Shown here in pieces: positions 3,670-56,089 of a stretch of 64,000 nucleotides of DNA. The notes below the pieces were generated by a model that ran no database searches, was not told where the DNA came from, and saw only the letters and a list, made by a program, of their open reading frames with translations. Source of the DNA: Oscillospiraceae bacterium (GTDB taxonomy: Bacteria; Bacillota; Clostridia; Oscillospirales; Oscillospiraceae); assembly GCA_910574635.1 (NCBI GenBank), contig CAJTCG010000010.1, positions 1 through 64,000 of the forward strand. The letters are read 5' to 3'. A program made the position numbers and the translations under genes. The stretch's first letter is position 1, and every line of letters begins with the position of its first letter.

Positions 3670-6600
3670 TTTAAGTCCTTCCCGGACAAGACCGTCCTGA
3701 ACTTCGGGGAGGATATCACCGCCATTGTGGGCCCAAACGGCTCGGGAAAATCCAATATCTCCGACGCCATCCGCTGGGTCATGGGCGAGCAGAGCGCCAA
3801 GGGCCTCCGGGGCGCGAAGATGGAGGACGTCATTTTCGGCGGCACGGAGCAGCGAAAGCAGGTGGGCTTCGCCCAGGTGACGTTGGTGCTGGACAACACG
3901 GAGCGCATCTTCCCCTCCATGGAGGAGGCGGAGGTGGCCGTCACCCGCCGGTATTACCGCAGCGGGGAGAGCGAATACTACATCAACCGCCAATCCGTCC
4001 GGCTCAAGGACGTGACGGAGCTGTTTCTGGACACCGGCCTTGGGCGGGAGGGCTATTCCATCATCGGCCAGGGCAAAATTGACGAAATCCTCTCCACCCG
4101 GAGCAGCGAGCGCCGGGAGATTTTCGAGGAGGCCGCCGGTATCTCCCGCTTCCGCCACCGGAAGGAGGAGGCGGAGCGGAAGCTGGAGCGGACGGAGGAA
4201 AATCTGGTCCGCATCAACGACAAGATTTCCGAGCTGGAGCTCCAGGTGGAGCCCCTGCGGGACCAGGCGGAGAAAGCGAAAAAATACCTCGTCCTGCGGG
4301 ACGAGCTGCGGGTTCTGGAAATCTCCGTGTGGCTGGAAAACCTGGACGCGCTGAAAATCAGCGCCCGGAAGCTGGAAATGGACTTCCACGCCGCCGAGAA
4401 GGAGCGGGACGAGGCCCGGGCCGCCCTGGATGCCCTCTATGCCGAGGGGGAGCGCTTTGGCGAGGAAATGCGCCAAAAGGACATGGAGGCGGAGCAGGTC
4501 CGGGCGGAGGCCGGGGAGCTGGACGCCCAGGCGAAGGACCAGTCCGCCGCCGTGGCGGTGCTGGAAACCGGCATCGCCCACAATCAGGAGAACATTGACC
4601 GGGCCCAGGCGGAGCTGGTGGAGTCCGACAGCCGGGCCGGGGGCCTGGCGGCCCAGTCCGCCCAGGAGAAGGACCGGGCGGAGGGCCTGTCCCGGCGGCT
4701 GGAGGAGCTGAACATGGGCCTGGAGGCCCTTTTGGAAAAGGCCCGGGCCGCCGCCGCCCAGGCGGGGGGCCAGCAGTCCGAGGCGGAGGCCCTTCGGGGC
4801 CGGGAGGCCATGGCCGTGGCCGCCGCCGCCGACGCCAGGGCGGAAACCGCCGCCCTCGCCGCCGAGAACGGGCAGCTGGAGGAGCGCCGGAGCGCCGTGG
4901 AGGCGGAAAAGGCCGCCATAGAGGAGCAGCTGGAGCAGACCCAAAAGGAAGCCAAGGCCAACCGCCGCGCCCTGGAGGACGCCAGGGACGACGCCCAGGC
5001 CGCCGCCAACATCATCGCGGGCCACAGCCTGCGGATGGAGGAGCGGGAGAAAAAGGCCGCCGCCGCCGCGGACAGGCGGATGAAGCTGACCATGGACGCG
5101 GGAGCTTTGGAAAACCGCATCCGGCTGCTGACGGAGATGGAAAAGGACTACGAGGGCTTTTCCAAGGCCGTCAAGCTGGTGTGCCAGAATAACCTGCGGG
5201 GAGTCCACGGCCCCGTGGCGGGGCTGATGAAAACGGATCAGCAGTACACCGTGGCCATCGAAATCGCCCTGGGGGCGGGACTCCAAAACATTGTTGTGGA
5301 CCGGGAGGAGGACGCGAAGGCCGCCATCGGCTACCTGAAGCAGCGGGACGGAGGCCGGGCCACCTTCCTTCCCCTCACCGCCATCCGGGGAGAGGAGCTG
5401 CGACAGAACGGCGTGGAAAGGGAATTGGGCTTCGTGGGAATCGCCTCCCGGCTGGTGAGCTTCGATCCGAGGTATCAGAACATCTTCCAGAACCTCCTGG
5501 GCCGGACGGTCATCGTGGAGGACCTGGACTGCGGCATCACCCTGGCCCGGAAGTACCATAACGCTTTTCGCATCGTCACCCTGGACGGCCAGGTCATCAA
5601 CCGGGGCGGCTCCATGACCGGCGGCTCCGCGTCCCGGAACGCCGGCGTGCTGAGCCGGGCGGCGGAGCTGGAAAAACTCCACGGCCGTTCCGCCGAAATG
5701 CGGGAGCGCCTGGAGGCGGTGAAACGGGAGGAGGAGCAGGTCCAGCGGGACCTGTCCGCCGCCCGGTACGACCTGGAGACCGCCGAGGGCCAGCGCCGCC
5801 AGGCGGAGGACGAGGTTTTACGGCTGGAAGGCGCGAAGAACCACTTTGACATTTTGCTCAAATCCCTGGGCGGGAATTTGGAAAACCTGACGGGAGAGCT
5901 GGAGAGCCTCACCGGGCATTTGGAGGAGAACCGGCAGCGAAAGGATCGGGCGGAGCAAACCGTCGCCCAGCAGGAGGCTGAGGCCGCGAAATACCGGGAA
6001 CAGGCCGGCCAGGCCCTCTCCGGCCAGTCGGAGCTTCTGGCCCAGTCCAGCGCCCTCACCGAGGAGGTTACCGCCCGGAAGGAGGAGCTGGCCGCCCTGA
6101 CCGCCGAGCGGGACGCCGCTCTCCAGCGGGCCGCGGATCTGCGCCGCCTGGCGGCGGAGCTGACGGGAGACCGGCGGCAGAAGGAGGAAACGCTTGGGAA
6201 TTACCAGGAGGCCATCGAAAAGGCCCAGGCGGAGATCGCCCGCCGCCGGGAGGACATGGGTGCCCTGAACCAGCGGCGGCAGAGCTGCCAGGAGCGGCTG
6301 AGCGCTCTGAACGAGGAAAAAATGGCCCTGGAAGCCCGGAGGACCGCCCAGAACAAGGCCAGCCAGGAGATGAACGAAAACCTCTTGAACCTGGAACGCT
6401 CCGCCTCCCGGCTGGAGCAGAAGCTGGCCACCTCCGGCATGGAGGAAAAGCAGATTATCGACCGCCTCTGGGAGCACTATGAGCTCAGCCACTCCGACGC
6501 CCAGGCCCAGCGCATCGAGCTGGAGAGCGTCCCCAAGGCCGCCCGGCGCATTGGAGAGTTGAAAAAAGGCATCGCCGCCCTAGGCACGCCGAATATCGGC

Positions 6601-7200
6601 GCCATTGAGGAGTATGAGCGGGTAAACACCCGGTATACTTATTTAACAGACCAGCGGGACGACGTGGAAAAGGCCAAAGGTGAGCTGGAAACCATCATCG
6701 GCGGCATCACCGGAGAGATGACCCGGATTTTCGCCGAGCAGTTCCAGCTCTTGAACGAGAGCTTCCAGGCCACGTTCTTAGAGATGTTCGGCGGCGGACA
6801 GGCCCAGCTGGAGCTGGAGGACGAGACGGACATCCTAAACTGCGGCATTGAGATTAAAGCCCAGCCGCCGGGAAAAACCCTCAAGACCATCTCCCTGCTG
6901 TCCGGCGGCGAAAAGGCCTTCGTGGCCATCGCGCTGTACTTCTCCATTTTGAAGGTCCATCCCACCCCCTTCTGCGTCATGGACGAGATCGAAGCGGCGC
7001 TGGACGACGTGAACGTCACCCGCTACGCCCGGTACATGCGTGCCCTGACGGGCAAAACGCAGTTCATTGTCATCACCCACCGCCGGGGCACCATGGAGGA
7101 GGCCGACGTGCTCTACGGCGTGACCATGCAGGAAAAGGGCGTGAGCAAAATCCTGACCATCAATCTGAACGACATGGCAAAGGAATTGGACATCCAGTAG
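3640..7200 (+). CDS. smc: Chromosome partition protein SMC
   Basis: A 1186-residue SMC ATPase, the usual full length, which organises and helps segregate the chromosome as a ring with ScpA/ScpB. The N-terminal head has Walker A GPNGSGKSN at residues 31-39. Two long Glu/Ala/Arg-rich coiled coils flank a hinge at roughly 500-660, which contains the GGSMTGGSAS stretch near its end. The C-terminal head has the signature LSGGEKA from about residue 1087 and Walker B FCVMDEIEAALDD near 1111, with the catalytic Glu after Asp. GTG 3640 fits homologues (MYLKALEIQGFKSF) and has AGAAAGGGG upstream. ftsY follows, as in most Firmicutes. The usual upstream neighbour rnc is absent, replaced by the mobile element. 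Confidence 0.97.
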   Translation: MYLKALEIQGFKSFPDKTVLNFGEDITAIVGPNGSGKSNISDAIRWVMGEQSAKGLRGAKMEDVIFGGTEQRKQVGFAQVTLVLDNTERIFPSMEEAEVAVTRRYYRSGESEYYINRQSVRLKDVTELFLDTGLGREGYSIIGQGKIDEILSTRSSERREIFEEAAGISRFRHRKEEAERKLERTEENLVRINDKISELELQVEPLRDQAEKAKKYLVLRDELRVLEISVWLENLDALKISARKLEMDFHAAEKERDEARAALDALYAEGERFGEEMRQKDMEAEQVRAEAGELDAQAKDQSAAVAVLETGIAHNQENIDRAQAELVESDSRAGGLAAQSAQEKDRAEGLSRRLEELNMGLEALLEKARAAAAQAGGQQSEAEALRGREAMAVAAAADARAETAALAAENGQLEERRSAVEAEKAAIEEQLEQTQKEAKANRRALEDARDDAQAAANIIAGHSLRMEEREKKAAAAADRRMKLTMDAGALENRIRLLTEMEKDYEGFSKAVKLVCQNNLRGVHGPVAGLMKTDQQYTVAIEIALGAGLQNIVVDREEDAKAAIGYLKQRDGGRATFLPLTAIRGEELRQNGVERELGFVGIASRLVSFDPRYQNIFQNLLGRTVIVEDLDCGITLARKYHNAFRIVTLDGQVINRGGSMTGGSASRNAGVLSRAAELEKLHGRSAEMRERLEAVKREEEQVQRDLSAARYDLETAEGQRRQAEDEVLRLEGAKNHFDILLKSLGGNLENLTGELESLTGHLEENRQRKDRAEQTVAQQEAEAAKYREQAGQALSGQSELLAQSSALTEEVTARKEELAALTAERDAALQRAADLRRLAAELTGDRRQKEETLGNYQEAIEKAQAEIARRREDMGALNQRRQSCQERLSALNEEKMALEARRTAQNKASQEMNENLLNLERSASRLEQKLATSGMEEKQIIDRLWEHYELSHSDAQAQRIELESVPKAARRIGELKKGIAALGTPNIGAIEEYERVNTRYTYLTDQRDDVEKAKGELETIIGGITGEMTRIFAEQFQLLNESFQATFLEMFGGGQAQLELEDETDILNCGIEIKAQPPGKTLKTISLLSGGEKAFVAIALYFSILKVHPTPFCVMDEIEAALDDVNVTRYARYMRALTGKTQFIVITHRRGTMEEADVLYGVTMQEKGVSKILTINLNDMAKELDIQ

Positions 7201-40851: not shown

Positions 40852-40880
40852 TTGTCAAGGCGGGGGGAAATTGCTATAAT
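40852..40880 (+). promoter_or_regulatory. Sigma-A promoter of the M60 peptidase-SLH operon
   Basis: TTGTCA (40852-40857), 17 bp, perfect TATAAT (40875-40880). The leader to ATG 40951 is about 64 bases. Confidence 0.85.
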
Positions 40881-40950: not shown

Positions 40951-43900
40951 ATGCGCATCAAACAACGAGTTTTATCCCTGCTGCTGGCCGGGGCGCTGCT
41001 GGTCCCCGGGCTTCCGGCGGCGGAGGCCGCCTGGGGCGGCGCGGACCTGGGCGGCATCTCCGCCACGGTCCGGGTGGACTGGCCCCAGACCCTGGAGGCC
41101 CTCCGGGATCGGAGGGTCCGGGCGGAGCTGTACCAGGAGGGCCGTTCCCTGGGAACGCTGGACCTGACGGAGGAAGACGGCCGGGCGGACCTGGGCGGCT
41201 ATCCCGCCGTTGTGGCCCTGCGGAACCAGGACGGCGGAGAGCTGGGCGGCGGAAGATGGCCCGGCTATCTGGACATGTCCGTCTCCGGCCTGCCCCAGGG
41301 GAATTACACCCTGGAATTTACCGGGGACGGCTACGCGGACTGCCGCCAGGAGCTGACCATTGACCGCTATTCCCAGCATGTCACCCTGGGCACGGCGGAC
41401 GCCTCCTTCACCCTGGGGGACGTGGACGGCGACGGCCGGGTCAGCAGCCGGGACCGGGAGGAGCTGGCGGAGGCCCTGGGCTCCGCCGGCCGCCGGGACC
41501 TGGAGCGCTATGACCTGAACGGCGACGGCGTGGTGGACGTGTACGACCTGGCCATCGTCAGCCGGAACCGGAACGCCGAGGGCCGTCCGGAGGTCCGGGA
41601 CACGAACCTCCTGGCCCCGCTGGTGGAGGAGGTCCGCCTGGGGGAGGGGGCCAGCCTGTCCTCCGGCATTCTGGAAGACCTGTTCCGGAATAACGGCCAG
41701 ACCGTCACCCTCTCCGGCATGCCCTTGGAGCTGGCCGTCTCCCTGGCGGAGCCGGTGGAGATGGAGGAGATCCGGATCGTCTCCCCCGAGGGGCCCGAGG
41801 CCATGCGGGAGGGCTCCGTAGCCGTGACTTATGAGGACGGAAGCGGGGAAACCATCCCCTTCGACCTCTCCCTGCCCGAGGGGATTCGCGCCATCGGCCC
41901 CGTGGAGGGCAGCAGCGTGGTGAAGATCTCCCTGGGCCGCCGGGTGGCGGTAAAGGAGATCGTCATCACCGTCACCCGCACCGAGGGCGGGGACTACACC
42001 ACCGTGGAATCCATCCAGTTCCTCCGGGAGATCATCCCGGAGCGGCCCTCCGCCGCCGGCAGCGTGGTGCGGAACCTCACCGCCGCCGCCGGAAGCGAGA
42101 AGGTCAGCCTCCGCTGGAGCGAGGTGCCCAACGTCTCCGGCTACCGGGTGGACTACTGGCTCCAGGACGGCAGCGGCAGCCGCCGCTCGTTGCGGGTGGA
42201 CGTGCCCCGGGCGGAGGTCACGGGGCTGGAGAATCTGAAAACCTACCTGTTCACCGTCACCCCCGTGGACGGCGCCTGGGAGGGGACGGCCTGTGACCCC
42301 GTGTCCGCCACGCCCCAGCCCGCCCGGGCTCCCAGCGCGCCGGACATGGTGAGCGTAAGCTCCCTGGACAGCGCCCTGTCCGTGGGCTGGAAGGCGGCGG
42401 AGAACGCCACCTTCTACGAGGTCTATTACAAGGCCGAGGATGAGTCCGGCTACCGCCAGTGGGGCGGCCGCCTCAGCAATACCAGCACGGTTATTACGGA
42501 CCTGACCAACGATGTCACCTATTCCATCTACATCCAGGCGGGGAACAGCATGGGGGTCAGCGGACCCTCCCGCACCGCCCTGGGAACCCCCTCCGCCGTG
42601 GATTACTCCCGCCCGGAGGGCATCCCCACCGAGGGCGTTCTGGACTGGCAGGACATCGAAGAGGTGTGGCTGGCGAATCCCAAGAATGTCTCTCCCACCG
42701 CCTATCCCGCAAGCAAGCCCTTCCAGCCGGAGTTTATGGCCGACGGCGATTTCAGCACCCACTGGACGTCCCACTCCTACAATGACGGCAACTGGTGGGA
42801 CGGCAAGCAGGTCCTGGCGACCTTCAAGCGGCCCGTGGACCTCAGCAGCGTCATCTGGGTCCCCCGGCTGGACGGAAGCTATCCCAACAACCTCCGGCTC
42901 TACACCGTCACCGTCTGGCGGCAGGGCGACAATCTGAACGGCCCCGGCACCCTGGTGTCCCCGAATCCCCTCCAGGGGGGCAGCGCCTCCGACCATAACA
43001 CCTGGCTAAGCGTGGGGAACAACCCCGCCGTGACGAAGTTTGCCGTGCTGCCCTTCGAGCCGGTGACGGACGTGGTGAAGATCGCCGTTACCATCGAGCA
43101 GGTGGCCTACACGGCGGTGAGCCTGTCGGAGCTGATGTTTATGGAGTACGATCCGGCCCGCTGCCTGCCGGACAACATCACGGCCCTCTTCTCCGACGAG
43201 CTGCGGACCGTCCTGCGCCCCGGCGTCACCCAGGCGGACATCCAGGCCCTCCGGCAGCGGCTGGAGAGCGGCGAGCGGAACTATTACATGAACCTGGACA
43301 CCCTGGCGGACGAGCTGGACCTGGCGGAGGAGCTGCTGCGGAGCGGGACCTCCTCCGGCGTGGTGCAAAGCGGCGTCCAGTCCCGCAGCGCCGGAGCGGA
43401 CGCGAAGTACCAGCAGGGCGGCAGCGACCTCCAGCCCCTGGGCGTGGCCGCCGGGGCGGGGCAGGAGCTGACCGTCTACGCCTCCGGCATCCCGGCGGGA
43501 CAGAAGCTGACGGTTTACGCCAGCCAGTTCAACGCCGAGGCCTCCGCCTGGCGGGCGGAGATCGGAGCGCTGTCCAATGGGCGGAATGTGCTGACGGTTC
43601 CCCAGATCGGCAGCCAGAACACCCCCCAGGGCGGCAGCCTGTATCTGACCTACGGCGGCGCGAATCCCGAGGGCATCCGCCTCCACATCCGCCGGGGAAC
43701 GGACATCCCGGTGCTGGAGCTGGCGGATTGGCATGCCTGGAACGACGGCCAGCGGAGAACGGAGCTGGGACGCTACGTGGACGAGCTGGAAGCCTATGCC
43801 GCCGGTCTGGCGGGAGACGCGCAGACGAACTTCCGCAACGTTACGGAGATTTCCACCCCCACCATGCTGCTCTCCCTGCCCGCGGCGGCGGTGCAAAGCG

Positions 43901-45825
43901 GCGCGGGCCGGAGCCGGGCGGAGCGGATCGAGACCCTGTACCAGGCCGTCCTGGCCTGGGAGGACGTGATGCACATCTGCAAAACCACCCAGGGCATCGA
44001 CAAGACCTACGCCCAAAACGACATGCGGACCCGCCAGAACATCCGCTGCATGCAGATGTTCGCGGGAGCGTTCATGTACGCGGCGGGGAACCACATCGGC
44101 ATTGGTTACGGCTCCTGCGCCGGCATGGCCTGCGGAAAGCCCATCAGCTCCATGGGGGCCTCCGACACGGCGAACCGGCTCTTCGGCTGGGGCATCGCCC
44201 ACGAGATCGGCCACAACATGGACAAGCTGGGCAAAGCTGAAATCACCAACAACCTCTATGCCCTGATGGTCCAGACTTACGACGGGAAGCAGAACACCCT
44301 GGCCTCCCGCCTGGAGAAGAGCGGCAAATACCCGGGCATTTTCACAAAGACCGCCCAGGGCCTCCCCGGCGACTCCAACGACGTGTTCGTCCAGCTGGGG
44401 CTCTACTGGCAGCTCCACCTGGCCTATGACGGCGGGGACAAGCCCATGGACTTCTACAACCGCTTCTTCAAGGCCTGGAAGGCGGGGACCTATTTCGGCG
44501 GCGAAACCAATTATCAGGACCGGGTGGCCCGCACCGCCTCCGCCGTGGCGAACCGGAATCTGACGGAGTTCTTCACCCGCTGGGGCATGACCCTCAGCGA
44601 CAGCACCAAGGCGGAGCTGGCGAAGCTCCCGGAGGAGCCCCGGGCCCTCTGGTATCTCAGCGATCAAAGCCGCCGGGACCGGCTGGCAGGGGTTTCCCAG
44701 GGCCAGGGAACCGTCTCCCTGACGGCGGCTCTGGAGGGGGAGAAGGCGGTCAAGCTGACCATCACCTCCTCCGTCACCCAGGGGAAGGTCCAGGGCTATG
44801 AGATCCTCCGCAACGGCGTTCCCATCGCCTTCACTGCGGAGGCCGTCTATACGGATACCATCGGCTCCGCCAACCACCGGACCTTTGCCTACAGCGTCCG
44901 GGCCTATGACACCCTGGGGAACCGCATTGCCGAGGCCTCGGCCCCGGAGCTGCGGATTGCCTACGACAAAACCGTCCCGGCGGACGCCTATGACATTTCC
45001 CGGAACGGGACCACCGTTACCTTTACTATGAAGGAGGAAACCCCGGTTTCCGGCTTGAAGCTGACAGGGGTCCCCGCGTCGGGTAAATTCACCGTCACCG
45101 TCACGGATAAGGACGGAAAAACCACCACTGCCCGCTCCGGCGACTTCGGCCAGGGAAACCAGGCCGTGGACGACAAGAGCAGCTACCTGACCTATTTCCA
45201 GAAGCCCGGCGCGGAGGCGGCGGACACCCGCATTTGGACCTACGACGCCAAGACCGTTACCGTCACCGGCGTCCCGGAGAATGTGGCTCCCCAGCTCATC
45301 AGCTACGCCGGGGACGACGTGGCCTTCCTGGAGAACGGGGCCGTGGGCGTATTGTCCAAGGCGTACCGCTACGGCACGGAGGCCGGGCAGGTCATCCCCG
45401 CCGGGACGCTGATTGTCACCGGCACCTACCGGGGCGACCCGGCCTATCAGACGGTGAAGATCGAGGGCCGGTTCACCCGGACCGTCCTCACCGGAGAGGC
45501 GGAGGAGGTTCAGACTACCACCGAATCCCGCTGGCTGGACGGCAGGGCCCTGCTTTTCGCGGAGATTCCCGCCGACGGCAAGGTCTGCGACATCAGCGAC
45601 GGCCTCTTCATCTTCATCCCCAACGTCCAGAAGGAGGCGGAGCTCCAGGGCGGGACCAGCGCGTGCAACGCCGCCAGCCTCCTGCCCGCCCAGATGCGGG
45701 CGGTGCTCTCCCGGACGGACAAGCCTACCCTGGCGGAGAGCCAGCGGGTAACGGCGGAGACGCTTTGGATCAACACCCCCGGCGGGGAGGACCTGCCGGC
45801 TATCGAATTGGAGGAAGGCGAATGA
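40951..45825 (+). CDS. Giant secreted M60-like (mucinase-type) metallopeptidase with a dockerin-like module
   Basis: A 1624-residue exported protein. Order: signal peptide (1-27, cleavage after AEA); beta-rich region; dockerin-like module (about 153-208) with two calcium loops DVDGDGRVSSRD and DLNGDGVVDVYD; a further beta domain; two fibronectin-III domains (about 370-460 and 462-550); a discoidin/F5-8C-like domain (about 585-732, FMADGDFSTHWTS); then an M60/enhancin-type gluzincin domain. Its zinc site is HEIGHN (His1084, Glu1085, His1088) followed by Glu1097 in AEITNNLYAL, the expected HExxH-x8-E. C-terminal beta domains complete it. M60-like enzymes cleave O-glycosylated mucins. The stop overlaps the next gene's ATG. 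Confidence 0.88.
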   Translation: MRIKQRVLSLLLAGALLVPGLPAAEAAWGGADLGGISATVRVDWPQTLEALRDRRVRAELYQEGRSLGTLDLTEEDGRADLGGYPAVVALRNQDGGELGGGRWPGYLDMSVSGLPQGNYTLEFTGDGYADCRQELTIDRYSQHVTLGTADASFTLGDVDGDGRVSSRDREELAEALGSAGRRDLERYDLNGDGVVDVYDLAIVSRNRNAEGRPEVRDTNLLAPLVEEVRLGEGASLSSGILEDLFRNNGQTVTLSGMPLELAVSLAEPVEMEEIRIVSPEGPEAMREGSVAVTYEDGSGETIPFDLSLPEGIRAIGPVEGSSVVKISLGRRVAVKEIVITVTRTEGGDYTTVESIQFLREIIPERPSAAGSVVRNLTAAAGSEKVSLRWSEVPNVSGYRVDYWLQDGSGSRRSLRVDVPRAEVTGLENLKTYLFTVTPVDGAWEGTACDPVSATPQPARAPSAPDMVSVSSLDSALSVGWKAAENATFYEVYYKAEDESGYRQWGGRLSNTSTVITDLTNDVTYSIYIQAGNSMGVSGPSRTALGTPSAVDYSRPEGIPTEGVLDWQDIEEVWLANPKNVSPTAYPASKPFQPEFMADGDFSTHWTSHSYNDGNWWDGKQVLATFKRPVDLSSVIWVPRLDGSYPNNLRLYTVTVWRQGDNLNGPGTLVSPNPLQGGSASDHNTWLSVGNNPAVTKFAVLPFEPVTDVVKIAVTIEQVAYTAVSLSELMFMEYDPARCLPDNITALFSDELRTVLRPGVTQADIQALRQRLESGERNYYMNLDTLADELDLAEELLRSGTSSGVVQSGVQSRSAGADAKYQQGGSDLQPLGVAAGAGQELTVYASGIPAGQKLTVYASQFNAEASAWRAEIGALSNGRNVLTVPQIGSQNTPQGGSLYLTYGGANPEGIRLHIRRGTDIPVLELADWHAWNDGQRRTELGRYVDELEAYAAGLAGDAQTNFRNVTEISTPTMLLSLPAAAVQSGAGRSRAERIETLYQAVLAWEDVMHICKTTQGIDKTYAQNDMRTRQNIRCMQMFAGAFMYAAGNHIGIGYGSCAGMACGKPISSMGASDTANRLFGWGIAHEIGHNMDKLGKAEITNNLYALMVQTYDGKQNTLASRLEKSGKYPGIFTKTAQGLPGDSNDVFVQLGLYWQLHLAYDGGDKPMDFYNRFFKAWKAGTYFGGETNYQDRVARTASAVANRNLTEFFTRWGMTLSDSTKAELAKLPEEPRALWYLSDQSRRDRLAGVSQGQGTVSLTAALEGEKAVKLTITSSVTQGKVQGYEILRNGVPIAFTAEAVYTDTIGSANHRTFAYSVRAYDTLGNRIAEASAPELRIAYDKTVPADAYDISRNGTTVTFTMKEETPVSGLKLTGVPASGKFTVTVTDKDGKTTTARSGDFGQGNQAVDDKSSYLTYFQKPGAEAADTRIWTYDAKTVTVTGVPENVAPQLISYAGDDVAFLENGAVGVLSKAYRYGTEAGQVIPAGTLIVTGTYRGDPAYQTVKIEGRFTRTVLTGEAEEVQTTTESRWLDGRALLFAEIPADGKVCDISDGLFIFIPNVQKEAELQGGTSACNAASLLPAQMRAVLSRTDKPTLAESQRVTAETLWINTPGGEDLPAIELEEGE

Positions 45826-46883
45826 AGCGTATTGTATCCGGCCTTCTGGCCCTGTGCCTGCTCTGCGCCCTGCCGGTGACGGCGGCGGCCCGGAGCAATC
45901 CGGCCCTCTTCTGCCGGGAGCGGGACGGCGAGGTCCGCCTCACCCTGGAGGGCCTGGACCGCCAGGTCTGCGCCCTCCAGCTGGAGCTGGTTTTAGAGGG
46001 GGAGTGTCCCGACGCCCGCTTTGCGTCCGGGCTTCGGGAGGCCTACAGCCCGGACTGCCATGTGGAGGCGGACCGGGATGAAACCGTTGTGACCATCTAC
46101 CTGGTGGCGGAGGACGAGCCCCTGTCGGGCCGGTCCCTGAACCTGGGGACGCTGACGCCGGGGAGCGCCTTCCGCCTCCCCGCCCGGGCGGAATTGCTGC
46201 TGCTGGACCGGAGCCTCCAGCCCATCTTCGAGGGACGGATTTCCCTGAAGGCGGATCGAGACGAGCCCGACCCCGTCCAGAGCGTCCTGGCGTTCCAGGA
46301 CGTGCGGCCGGGGGACTGGTGCTATGACGCGGTGCGCTACGTCTTTGAGGCGGGGCTGATGAACGGCACTGCCGCCGATACGTTCACTCCCAACGCCTCC
46401 ACCACACGGGGGCAGATCGTGGCCATTCTCTACCGGCTGGAGGGCTCTCCCGCCCCCGTTCAGGGGAATGCCGATTCCTCCTTTATCCTCGTGGGGGGTG
46501 AGCCCGCCGGGCAGACCACCTTCAGCGACGTGGCCCCCGGGGCCTATTACGCCGCCGCCGTCTCCTGGGCCTCGGCGGGCGGCATCGTCAACGGCTACGG
46601 AGACGGGACGTTCCGGCCCAATAACCTCATCACCCGGGAGCAGCTGGCGGCGTTTTTGTATCGCTATGCCTCTCAAAAGGGGCGGGACGTGTCCGGCCGG
46701 ACGGCGCTGAACGCCTTTGCCGACGCGGGACAGGTTGCCTCCTATGCCGTGGAGCCCTTGAGCTGGGCCGTGTCGGCGGGCCTGGTCAACGGCGTTTCCG
46801 CCGATACCCTGTCCCCCAGGGGGAACGCCAGCCGGGCCCAGGTAGCGGTGATCCTCAGCCGCTTCGTGCAGAACGTGCGCTGA
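45822..46883 (+). CDS. SLH-domain surface protein with a possible cohesin-like N-terminal domain
   Basis: A 353-residue exported protein: signal peptide (1-22), a beta-sandwich region (about 23-145), then three SLH repeats (about 150-205, 226-280, 293-350; VLAFQDVRPGDWCYDAVRY, TFSDVAPGAYYAAAVSWA, NAFADAGQVASYAVEPLSW) that bind wall polymer. The N-terminal region has the cadence of cohesins: VRLTLEGLDRQVCALQLEL, later TVTIYLVAEDEPLSG and LNLGTLTPG. The match is by pattern only. Its ATG overlaps the stop of the dockerin-bearing peptidase (ATGA), so the two are made together; anchoring the peptidase is the obvious hypothesis. Confidence 0.85.
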   Translation: MKRIVSGLLALCLLCALPVTAAARSNPALFCRERDGEVRLTLEGLDRQVCALQLELVLEGECPDARFASGLREAYSPDCHVEADRDETVVTIYLVAEDEPLSGRSLNLGTLTPGSAFRLPARAELLLLDRSLQPIFEGRISLKADRDEPDPVQSVLAFQDVRPGDWCYDAVRYVFEAGLMNGTAADTFTPNASTTRGQIVAILYRLEGSPAPVQGNADSSFILVGGEPAGQTTFSDVAPGAYYAAAVSWASAGGIVNGYGDGTFRPNNLITREQLAAFLYRYASQKGRDVSGRTALNAFADAGQVASYAVEPLSWAVSAGLVNGVSADTLSPRGNASRAQVAVILSRFVQNVR

Positions 46884-46901: not shown

Positions 46902-46935
46902 AACCGGCGGACCGTTTCGGTCCGCCGGTTTTTTG
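46902..46935. terminator. Bidirectional terminator between the SLH gene and ilvA
   Basis: AACCGGCGGACC and GGTCCGCCGGTT form a 12-bp stem with a T run on each outgoing strand, between convergent genes. Confidence 0.9.
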
Positions 46936-53975: not shown

Positions 53976-54044
53976 GCAGTAAGGCCGAAAGGCCGGGTCA
54001 AAATCGCAGAGGTGAAAGGAGGCCATGGGAAAAGTCCCATCAAA

Positions 54045-54190
54045 GCGCCATGCGCCGGCTTTAGCCGGATAACGAGGTGAGGGGAGTATCGAATTGTTCG
54101 GCGGATGCCCCTCCGTGCCCTGGGCGGGCGCGTGACACGGCTTACAAATATGCGGGCGACCGCAAAACAGAAGGGCCGTGGCCGTCCTGA
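54045..54190 (+). ncRNA. glmS ribozyme-riboswitch
   Basis: A self-cleaving RNA that uses glucosamine-6-phosphate as cofactor. Core features: AAAGCGCC at the cleavage site (cut predicted between A54044 and G54045), the hairpin CCGGCTTTAGCCGG, AACGAGGTGAGGGGAGTATCGA, TTCGGCGGATGCCCCTCC, and the 3' P3-P4 region with ATGCGGGCGACCGCAAAACAGAAGGGCC. Cleavage destabilises the glmS mRNA when the product is plentiful. Upstream of the site lie two small hairpins (GGCC-GAAA-GGCC and GGGAAAAGTCCC). Downstream, 54189-54228, an imperfect stem ending TTAATTTTT resembles a weak terminator. Confidence 0.93.
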
Positions 54191-54250: not shown

Positions 54251-56089
54251 ATGTGTGGAATTGTTGGTTTTGTAGGCCAAAAACAGGCTGCCCCCGTGCT
54301 GCTGGAGGGCTTGAGGCAGATGGAGTACCGGGGCTATGACTCGGCGGGCGTGGCCGTCCGCTCCGAAACCAAGGGCTTGCAGGTCCGCAAATCCAAGGGC
54401 CGCTTACAGGTCCTGGCGGACTTGACCCATAACGGGGCGGACCTGGAGGGAACCCTGGGTATCGGGCACACCCGCTGGGCCACCCACGGGGAGCCCAACG
54501 ACGTCAACGCCCATCCCCACGTCAGCGGGGACGGAAAAATCGCTCTGGTACATAACGGCATCATCGAGAATTACCTGGAGCTAAAGGAACAGCTCACCCG
54601 GCAGGGGGTGGCCTTCACCTCCGAGACGGACACGGAAGTCGCGGCCCACCTCCTGGAGTTTCACTACCAGGAGTGCGGGAACATGCTGGAAGCCATGGGC
54701 CGGTGCCTGCGGCGCATCGAGGGGTCCTATGCTTTCGGCATCATCTGCTCGGACTACCCCAACGCCCTGATTGCCGCCCGGAAGGACAGCCCGCTGATCA
54801 TCGGCTTTGGGGAGGGGGAGAACTTCATCGCCTCCGACGCCACCGCCATCATCCGCCACACCCGGGACGTGGCCTATATGAACGACGGGGAAATCGCCGT
54901 GCTGACGGCGGAGAGTGTGGATGTGTTCGACGATGAGCTGAACCCCCTGGAGAAGGAGCACAGCCGCATCGACTGGGACGCGGCCTCCGCCGAGAAGGGC
55001 GGCTTCCCCCACTTCATGTTCAAGGAGATTCTGGAACAGCCGGAGGCCCTGCAAAAAACCATTTTCCCCCGTATCCGGGAGGGCCGGGTGGTGCTGGACG
55101 ACATCCGCCTGACGGAAGACTACGTCAAAAGCATCTCCCACATCTACATGATTGCCTGCGGCTCCGCCTATCATGCGGGAGTGGTGGGGAAATACACCTG
55201 GGAGCGTCTGCTCCGCCGCCCGGTGGAGGTGGCGCTGGCCTCGGAATTCCGCTACAGCGGGCCGCTGGTGGATGAGCACACCCTGGTCATTGCCATCAGC
55301 CAGTCCGGGGAGACCCTGGACACCATGGCCGCCCTGCGGGAGGCCAAGCGCCTGGGAGGCCGGACCCTGGCCATCTGCAATGTGGTGGGCAGCTCCATCG
55401 CCCGGGAGGCGGACGACGTGCTCTACACCTGGGCGGGACCGGAGATTGCCGTGGCCACCAGCAAGGGCTACTCGACCCAATTGGCGGCGCTGAACCTGGT
55501 GGGGCTGTACCTGGCGGATCGGCTGGGTACGGTGGAGCGGAGCGAGTACGACGCCATTTTGGCGGAGCTCCAGGCCCTGCCGGAGAAAATGCGGAGGTAC
55601 CTGGAGAATTTCGAGGACACGAAGTATTTCGCCTCCCGTTTCTTCAACCACGACAGCATTTTCTTCATTGGACGAAACCTGGATTACGCCATGGGCTTAG
55701 AGGGCTCCTTGAAGCTGAAGGAAATCAGCTACATCCACTCGGAGGCCTACGCCTCCGGAGAGCTGAAGCACGGGACCATCTCCCTCATCGAGCCGGGGAC
55801 GCTGGTGGTGGCCCTGGGGACCTATGCCGCCCTCTTTGACAAGGCCATGAGCAACGTGGTGGAGGTGAAGGCCCGGGGGGCCACGGTGCTGGCCGTCACC
55901 ACGGAAGGGTTCCGGGAGCGGATGGAGAAGACCGCCGACGCGGTTGTCGCCGTGCCGGAGACCCATCCGCTGCTCCAGCCGTCCCTCTCCATTGTGCCCT
56001 TGCAGCTGTTCGCCTATTATGTGGCCTTGCAAAGAGGGTGCGACATCGACAAGCCGAGAAACCTTGCAAAGTCTGTTACCGTAGAATAG
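54251..56089 (+). CDS. glmS: Glutamine-fructose-6-phosphate aminotransferase (isomerising)
   Basis: A 612-residue enzyme making glucosamine-6-phosphate for cell-wall precursors. The N-terminal glutaminase (1-235) starts with the nucleophile Cys2 (MCGIVGFVG) and has LRQMEYRGYDSAGVAV, GHTRWATHGEPNDVNAHPH. Two SIS isomerase domains follow (about 285-420 and 455-600; AISQSGETLDTMAALREAK). The conserved C-terminal end DKPRNLAKSVTVE is intact. AGGAGGAACG lies upstream of ATG 54251. Controlled by the ribozyme in its leader. Confidence 0.97.
   Translation: MCGIVGFVGQKQAAPVLLEGLRQMEYRGYDSAGVAVRSETKGLQVRKSKGRLQVLADLTHNGADLEGTLGIGHTRWATHGEPNDVNAHPHVSGDGKIALVHNGIIENYLELKEQLTRQGVAFTSETDTEVAAHLLEFHYQECGNMLEAMGRCLRRIEGSYAFGIICSDYPNALIAARKDSPLIIGFGEGENFIASDATAIIRHTRDVAYMNDGEIAVLTAESVDVFDDELNPLEKEHSRIDWDAASAEKGGFPHFMFKEILEQPEALQKTIFPRIREGRVVLDDIRLTEDYVKSISHIYMIACGSAYHAGVVGKYTWERLLRRPVEVALASEFRYSGPLVDEHTLVIAISQSGETLDTMAALREAKRLGGRTLAICNVVGSSIAREADDVLYTWAGPEIAVATSKGYSTQLAALNLVGLYLADRLGTVERSEYDAILAELQALPEKMRRYLENFEDTKYFASRFFNHDSIFFIGRNLDYAMGLEGSLKLKEISYIHSEAYASGELKHGTISLIEPGTLVVALGTYAALFDKAMSNVVEVKARGATVLAVTTEGFRERMEKTADAVVAVPETHPLLQPSLSIVPLQLFAYYVALQRGCDIDKPRNLAKSVTVE

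Follow-up and report, generated by a model that had tools for sequence, protein, structure and literature searches.

A Dockerin-Bearing M60 Peptidase and a Cohesin-Like SLH Protein as a Probable One-Enzyme, One-Anchor Unit in Clostridia

A 64,000-nucleotide stretch of DNA from an Oscillospiraceae bacterium (GenBank assembly GCA_910574635.1, contig CAJTCG010000010.1, positions 1 to 64,000; hereafter, the window) contains two adjoining genes, one for a secreted M60 peptidase with an N-terminal X-dockerin and one for an SLH protein with a cohesin-like domain (hereafter, the anchor). Very probably, the pair is an operon with coupled translation that places a single M60 protease on the cell surface through an X-dockerin and an SLH-borne cohesin, without a scaffoldin. 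The original prediction had proposed such a pair, and it is now supported by the predicted cohesin-like fold and dockerin helices. More broadly, the anchor domain probably represents a widespread, undescribed cohesin family that is invisible to sequence searches and explains seemingly partnerless dockerins of gut Clostridia; its members would form scaffold-free units of one protease and one anchor, in which SLH, NPxTG, and CWB2 anchors are swapped and plug and socket co-evolve.

Domain architecture of the pair

The open reading frames (ORFs) of 1624 and 353 aa from which the proposal started are present, with the stop codon of the first (TGA, 45823-45825) overlapping the start codon of the second (ATG, 45822-45824). 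Signal peptides were recognized by eye in both products. The features of the pair are as follows.

40951..45825, + strand: M60 gene, encoding a secreted 1624-aa peptidase that carries an X-dockerin at its N-terminus
41041..41385, + strand: X-like Ig-type domain, approximately residues 31-145, N-terminal to the dockerin (AF2 model, structural alignment)
41413..41565, + strand: dockerin at residues 155-205, with a pair of calcium loops (PF00404 Dockerin_1, 34.6 bits, cut-off 22.9)
42337..42576, + strand: fn3 domain, residues 463-542, the better of two Pfam stretches
43951..44586, + strand: M60 catalytic region, residues 1001-1212 (PF13402, 74 bits, cut-off 25.8)
44200..44214, + strand: HEIGH zinc motif, residues 1084-1088, with a downstream Glu at residue 1097
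45822..45825, + strand: ATGA shared by the M60 stop codon and the start codon of the anchor gene
45822..46883, + strand: anchor gene, 353 aa, cohesin-like domain and three SLH repeats
45888..46271, + strand: cohesin-like domain, 128 aa (AF2 pLDDT 89.5, pTM 0.82; no Pfam match)
46275..46880 (limits approximate), + strand: three SLH repeats (PF00395, 122 bits, three stretches)

The Asp-rich loops of the enzyme, initially taken for a dockerin by their spacing, are recognized as such by Pfam. The paired dockerin helices, on which the proposal was to stand or fall, are present in the AF2 model of X plus dockerin (pLDDT 95.7), where the dockerin shows three helices, and the model aligns with solved X-dockerins at a score far above all else listed (structural alignment, for this model and that of the cohesin-like domain alike, was restricted to Foldseek's best 1000 chains). 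The modeled architecture is that of a type II (anchoring) X-dockerin. EF-hand loops may be purely structural, and one could therefore imagine the X-dockerin as an internal part of the M60 protein, with the two proteins being neighbors that never touch. This is very improbable: the full X-dockerin architecture is retained, a calcium-loop pattern with Asp at both ends fits 77/78 dockerins at loop 1 and 78/78 at loop 2, and the pairing and anchor exchange described below would be left unexplained.

The three SLH repeats claimed for the anchor are likewise found by Pfam, and no Pfam family matches its first 150 residues. For the cohesin-like domain, AF2 predicts a beta-sandwich with high confidence, and a Foldseek search with this model returned cohesins at all of ranks 1-16, cohesin 2vo8 from Clostridium perfringens being among the top structural matches. 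The cohesin-like beta-sandwich, a second point on which the original prediction had agreed to be judged, is thus borne out in the predicted fold. At the sequence level, the family goes undetected: PF00963 is not among the 25 of 27 Pfam families shown for 74 members of the cohesin-like domain, the Pfam cohesin is also absent from the distant anchors scanned, and no chain matched in a sequence comparison with the PDB. Profile comparison with Pfam cohesins (hhalign, 30 cohesins) gave probabilities of 0.1-2.1%, below the 4.4% of an unrelated control domain; the best cohesin alignment is colinear across 73-75 columns. Among the M60 loci of the second collection (below), SLH repeats occur in 77/77 anchors scanned, and 57 of these carry an InlB B-repeat spacer, which the window's anchor lacks. 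PF04230 pyruvyl-transferase matches are present in the window genome, as they are in 8/14 control genomes, this being a broad family.

Pairing of the two genes across genomes

A search of 200 genomes of the family with the N-terminal domain of the anchor found matches in 14, including the window's. In each of the other 13, the gene immediately 5' encodes an M60 protein, with a dockerin in all 12 that have a complete N-terminus. Profile searches of 200 family genomes recovered the X-dockerin (>100 bits) from 22 genomes; 23 contain the cohesin-like domain, and 21 have both, as neighbors on the same strand. The exceptions are G180, where the M60 end lies approximately 60 nt from a contig end; G050, where a contig end truncates the M60 gene; and G118, where the M60 protein is reduced to its last 625 aa. 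This last locus (L208, 6369-9426) appears to be a decaying copy of the pair, and its cohesin-like ORF has no obvious signal peptide. The sample also includes two other members of the window's genus, and neither genome contains a cohesin-like domain. All 23 genomes with any match have exactly one, and the multi-cohesin scaffoldin typical of a cellulosome is thus absent from window-type units.

A second collection, gathered with an M60 alignment (an alignment of the cohesin-like domain gave no conserved stretch), yielded 258 M60 relatives. Among the best 80, a dockerin is present in 78 and a cohesin-like domain in the 3' gene in 76; the two dockerin gaps and four cohesin gaps coincide with contig ends, and the M60 gene is incomplete in three of the latter four. 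Sequence titles name Oscillibacter, Lawsonibacter, Pseudoflavonifractor, Flavonifractor, Butyricicoccus, Acutalibacter, Neglectibacter, Agathobaculum, and Flintibacter, among others. The two collections overlap (shared contigs), and their counts are not additive. Because the genes adjoin across so many genera, their pairing goes beyond chance. Alignment A4 combines the window with 73 of the 76 loci (L056, L060, and L079 omitted); A1 is without L025, A3 without L028, and A5 without L020 and L024. The M60 frame is broken in at least three of the 80 loci (L046, L076, and L093). In L046 (6965-10363) and L215 (4868-8266), the break falls after 1133 aa; these probably derive from one organism present in both collections.

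The window genome (4.48 Mb, 97.8% complete) contains a single PF00404 match, in the M60 gene, and zero PF00963 matches at E up to 1; with one dockerin, it also lacks the several dockerin enzymes of a cellulosome. Among 14 family genomes picked for having the cohesin-like domain, the window's included, 10 carry a single dockerin, one carries 2, and two carry 6 and 8; the remaining genome has none because a contig end cuts its M60 gene. The counts of 8, 6, and 2 in G070, G147, and G116 would suit an anchor that serves several enzymes as a small one-cohesin cellulosome. We consider this unlikely, given the lone dockerin in most of these genomes and the fact that 30/200 family genomes with only weaker X-dockerin profile matches have no cohesin-like domain. 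G070 (L021) and G147 (L016) belong to one genus and have one cohesin-like domain each; some of their dockerins lie within frames of >4000 aa.

Exchange of the cell-wall anchor

The cohesin-like domain also occurs in other families, with 9 matches in 391 genomes from a class-wide search, and 12 in 71 and 5 in 40 from two family searches (10 of the 15 further matches from the latter were inspected, centre genomes apart). A dockerin-bearing M60 gene directly adjoins the domain in 15/18 inspected loci. Of the other three, L150 is truncated where its contig begins; L155 (a weak match) and L237 have no adjoining M60 gene and are probably unrelated.

In the 15 M60-paired loci and L150, the surface part of the anchor, L153 apart, takes three forms: SLH repeats in five loci (L148-L151 and L236); in six (L152, L234, and L239-L242), an NPxTG motif together with a basic tail and a membrane segment; and CWB2 repeats in four (L154, L233, L235, and L238). 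L153 (7651-8760) encodes a cohesin-like anchor whose C-terminal part is neither SLH, CWB2, nor NPxTG. Pfam, run on part of the loci, confirmed SLH in L148 and L236 and CWB2 in L154 and L238; all other types were assigned by eye or pattern. Gram_pos_anchor scored under its Pfam cut-off in L152 and L241 and gave no match in L234. The dockerins of L152 and L234 score 20.7 and 21.2 bits, just under the cut-off of 22.9, and are recovered by the family's own profile. All six genomes with an NPxTG-form anchor (6/6) encode sortases. At L234 (G632), the NPTTG-tailed anchor gene and a gene with a sortase match converge (about 5234-5722 and 6093-6962), approximately 370 bp apart; the latter possibly encodes a dedicated sortase. 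A role in holding an enzyme to its anchor predicts what is seen here, namely that the socket stays the same across three cell-wall anchors unrelated to one another.

Co-variation of plug and socket

Pairwise divergence was compared for the window and 72 loci with an M60 protein of >1500 aa. With the rest of the M60 protein allowed for, divergence of the cohesin-like domain correlates best with that of the X domain (0.47) and the dockerin (0.36; 73 pairs), followed by the next M60 segment (0.30) and the other segments (-0.21 to 0.25). The SLH part, serving as control, gave 0.13 with X and 0.16 with the dockerin. Across 300 half-samples, X was best in 274 and the dockerin in 21. Restriction to 61 core members raised the SLH control to 0.29 and 0.26, still under the 0.55 and 0.43 of the cohesin-like domain. 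This pattern of sequence divergence supports contact between the cohesin-like domain and the X-dockerin.

Two points temper this reading: part of the co-variation could stem from the domains changing at similar rates, and the match to the cohesin fold, itself a prediction, is not unique with respect to CBM-like jelly rolls. The N-terminal domain could accordingly be a carbohydrate-binding jelly roll, resembling CBM2 or a GH20 N-domain, which would make the anchor a mucin adhesin and leave the dockerin with a structural task or another partner. We regard this as improbable, as cohesins fill the top Foldseek ranks, an M60 gene or its remnant always lies beside the domain in the 200 family genomes, and the domain varies with the X-dockerin rather than the catalytic domain. 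Moreover, the lone dockerin of the window genome, which has no other cohesin, would lose its partner.

Catalytic domain and probable substrate

The enzyme had been assigned to the M60 type from its HEIGHN sequence and a downstream Glu, and PF13402 agrees, with Glu1097 in place nine residues past the second His of HEIGH (HEIGHNMDKLGKAE). H1084, E1085, G1087, H1088, and E1097 are invariant in alignment A3 (13 rows). The closest solved structures are annotated as an F5/8 type C domain protein and as ZmpC/ZmpA glycopeptidase. Several genera among the relatives are known from animal guts. Passages of one study handle ZmpB, ZmpC, BT4244, and AM0627 as mucinases (PMC9325726). Because the solved relatives include ZmpC and ZmpA, and ZmpB and ZmpC count as mucinases in that study, the target of the window M60 protease is likely a mucin-type glycoprotein. 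A docked protease might instead trim surface glycoproteins of its own cell or of a neighbor, and the presence of the unit in several clostridial families would fit such a role; in view of the glycopeptidase relatives, the mucinase literature, and the gut habitats, however, we think a non-mucin target rather unlikely.

Proposed mechanism and relation to known systems

In the mechanism we propose, both proteins would be exported, and the anchor would be held on the cell wall through its SLH repeats, presenting a single cohesin. The M60 protease would leave the cell in soluble form, after which its N-terminal X-dockerin would plug into the cohesin, probably with calcium, such that the fn3 and catalytic parts face outward to cut O-glycosylated (mucin-type) protein. 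Coupled translation may keep enzyme and anchor near a one-to-one ratio. The unit would thus correspond to the anchoring half of a cellulosome, dedicated to one enzyme.

The X-dockerin of CipA binds SLH-borne cohesins. With such type II anchoring of cellulosomes (2b59, 5k39, and 5m0y), the window pair shares the modeled X plus dockerin fold and a cohesin-like fold on an SLH protein; however, its X-dockerin sits at the N-terminus of the enzyme instead of on a scaffoldin, and it comprises one cohesin and one enzyme from adjacent genes, with a cohesin undetectable by sequence. The Limousia mucinolysome is likewise a gut cohesin-dockerin system for mucin with dockerin-bearing peptidases, but is described with 3-6 scaffoldins (one with a sortase motif), up to 12 cohesins, and up to 22 dockerin CAZymes; M60, SLH, and S-layers go unmentioned in the main text of the paper (PMC12997984). 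Clostridium perfringens also uses single cohesins (X82) outside a cellulosome, with dockerins on glycoside hydrolases; its five cohesin proteins all have a GH domain, none being presented as a cell-wall anchor in the accounts drawn on here. The M60-like mucinases (ZmpA/B/C, BT4244, and AM0627) share PF13402 and HExGH with the window enzyme, which has an X-dockerin and partner anchor in addition. Among domains co-occurring with M60-like domains, Nakjang 2012 tabulated dockerin (2, 2) and SLH (3, 1), the word cohesin not appearing in that paper (PMC3267712).

The literature already covers anchoring by cohesin and dockerin, X-dockerins, SLH anchors, M60 mucinases, and a cellulosome-like complex that degrades mucin. 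Searches of one open-access library found no prior description of a dedicated one-enzyme unit, a sequence-invisible cohesin family, or anchor exchange. A survey of UHGG counts 26,894 dockerin-containing genomes, against 4,333 that have both dockerins and cohesins (PMC12997984); many gut genomes thus have dockerins but no detectable cohesins. If the pair binds, part of this gap would be a detection problem, with missing cohesins findable as neighbors. Binding would further reveal a way in which little-studied gut Clostridia may hold a mucin protease at their surface, and binding studies would gain a new plug and socket that are one-to-one by nature and come with three exchangeable cell-wall anchors.

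Flanking signals and other features of the window

The gene 5' of the M60 gene is in the opposite orientation. Two candidate signals flank the pair.

40852..40880, + strand: promoter-like TTGTCA-17-TATAAT with extended -10, 11/12 consensus matches, approximately 70 nt 5' of the M60 gene; the consensus match is by itself no proof of function
46902..46930, strand unassigned: terminator-like hairpin 3' of the anchor gene, T-rich on both flanks (scan entry on the - strand, + strand read directly); such sites are no more frequent in the scan than in shuffled sequence

Elsewhere in the window, a Group II intron match (RF00029, 42.9 bits, gathering cut-off 40) at 1-96 is cut by the window start. A glmS ribozyme (Rfam RF00234, 63.1 bits) lies at 54033-54190, just 5' of an ORF (54251-56086) whose start, MCGIVGFVGQ, resembles that of a glutamine-fructose-6-phosphate transaminase.
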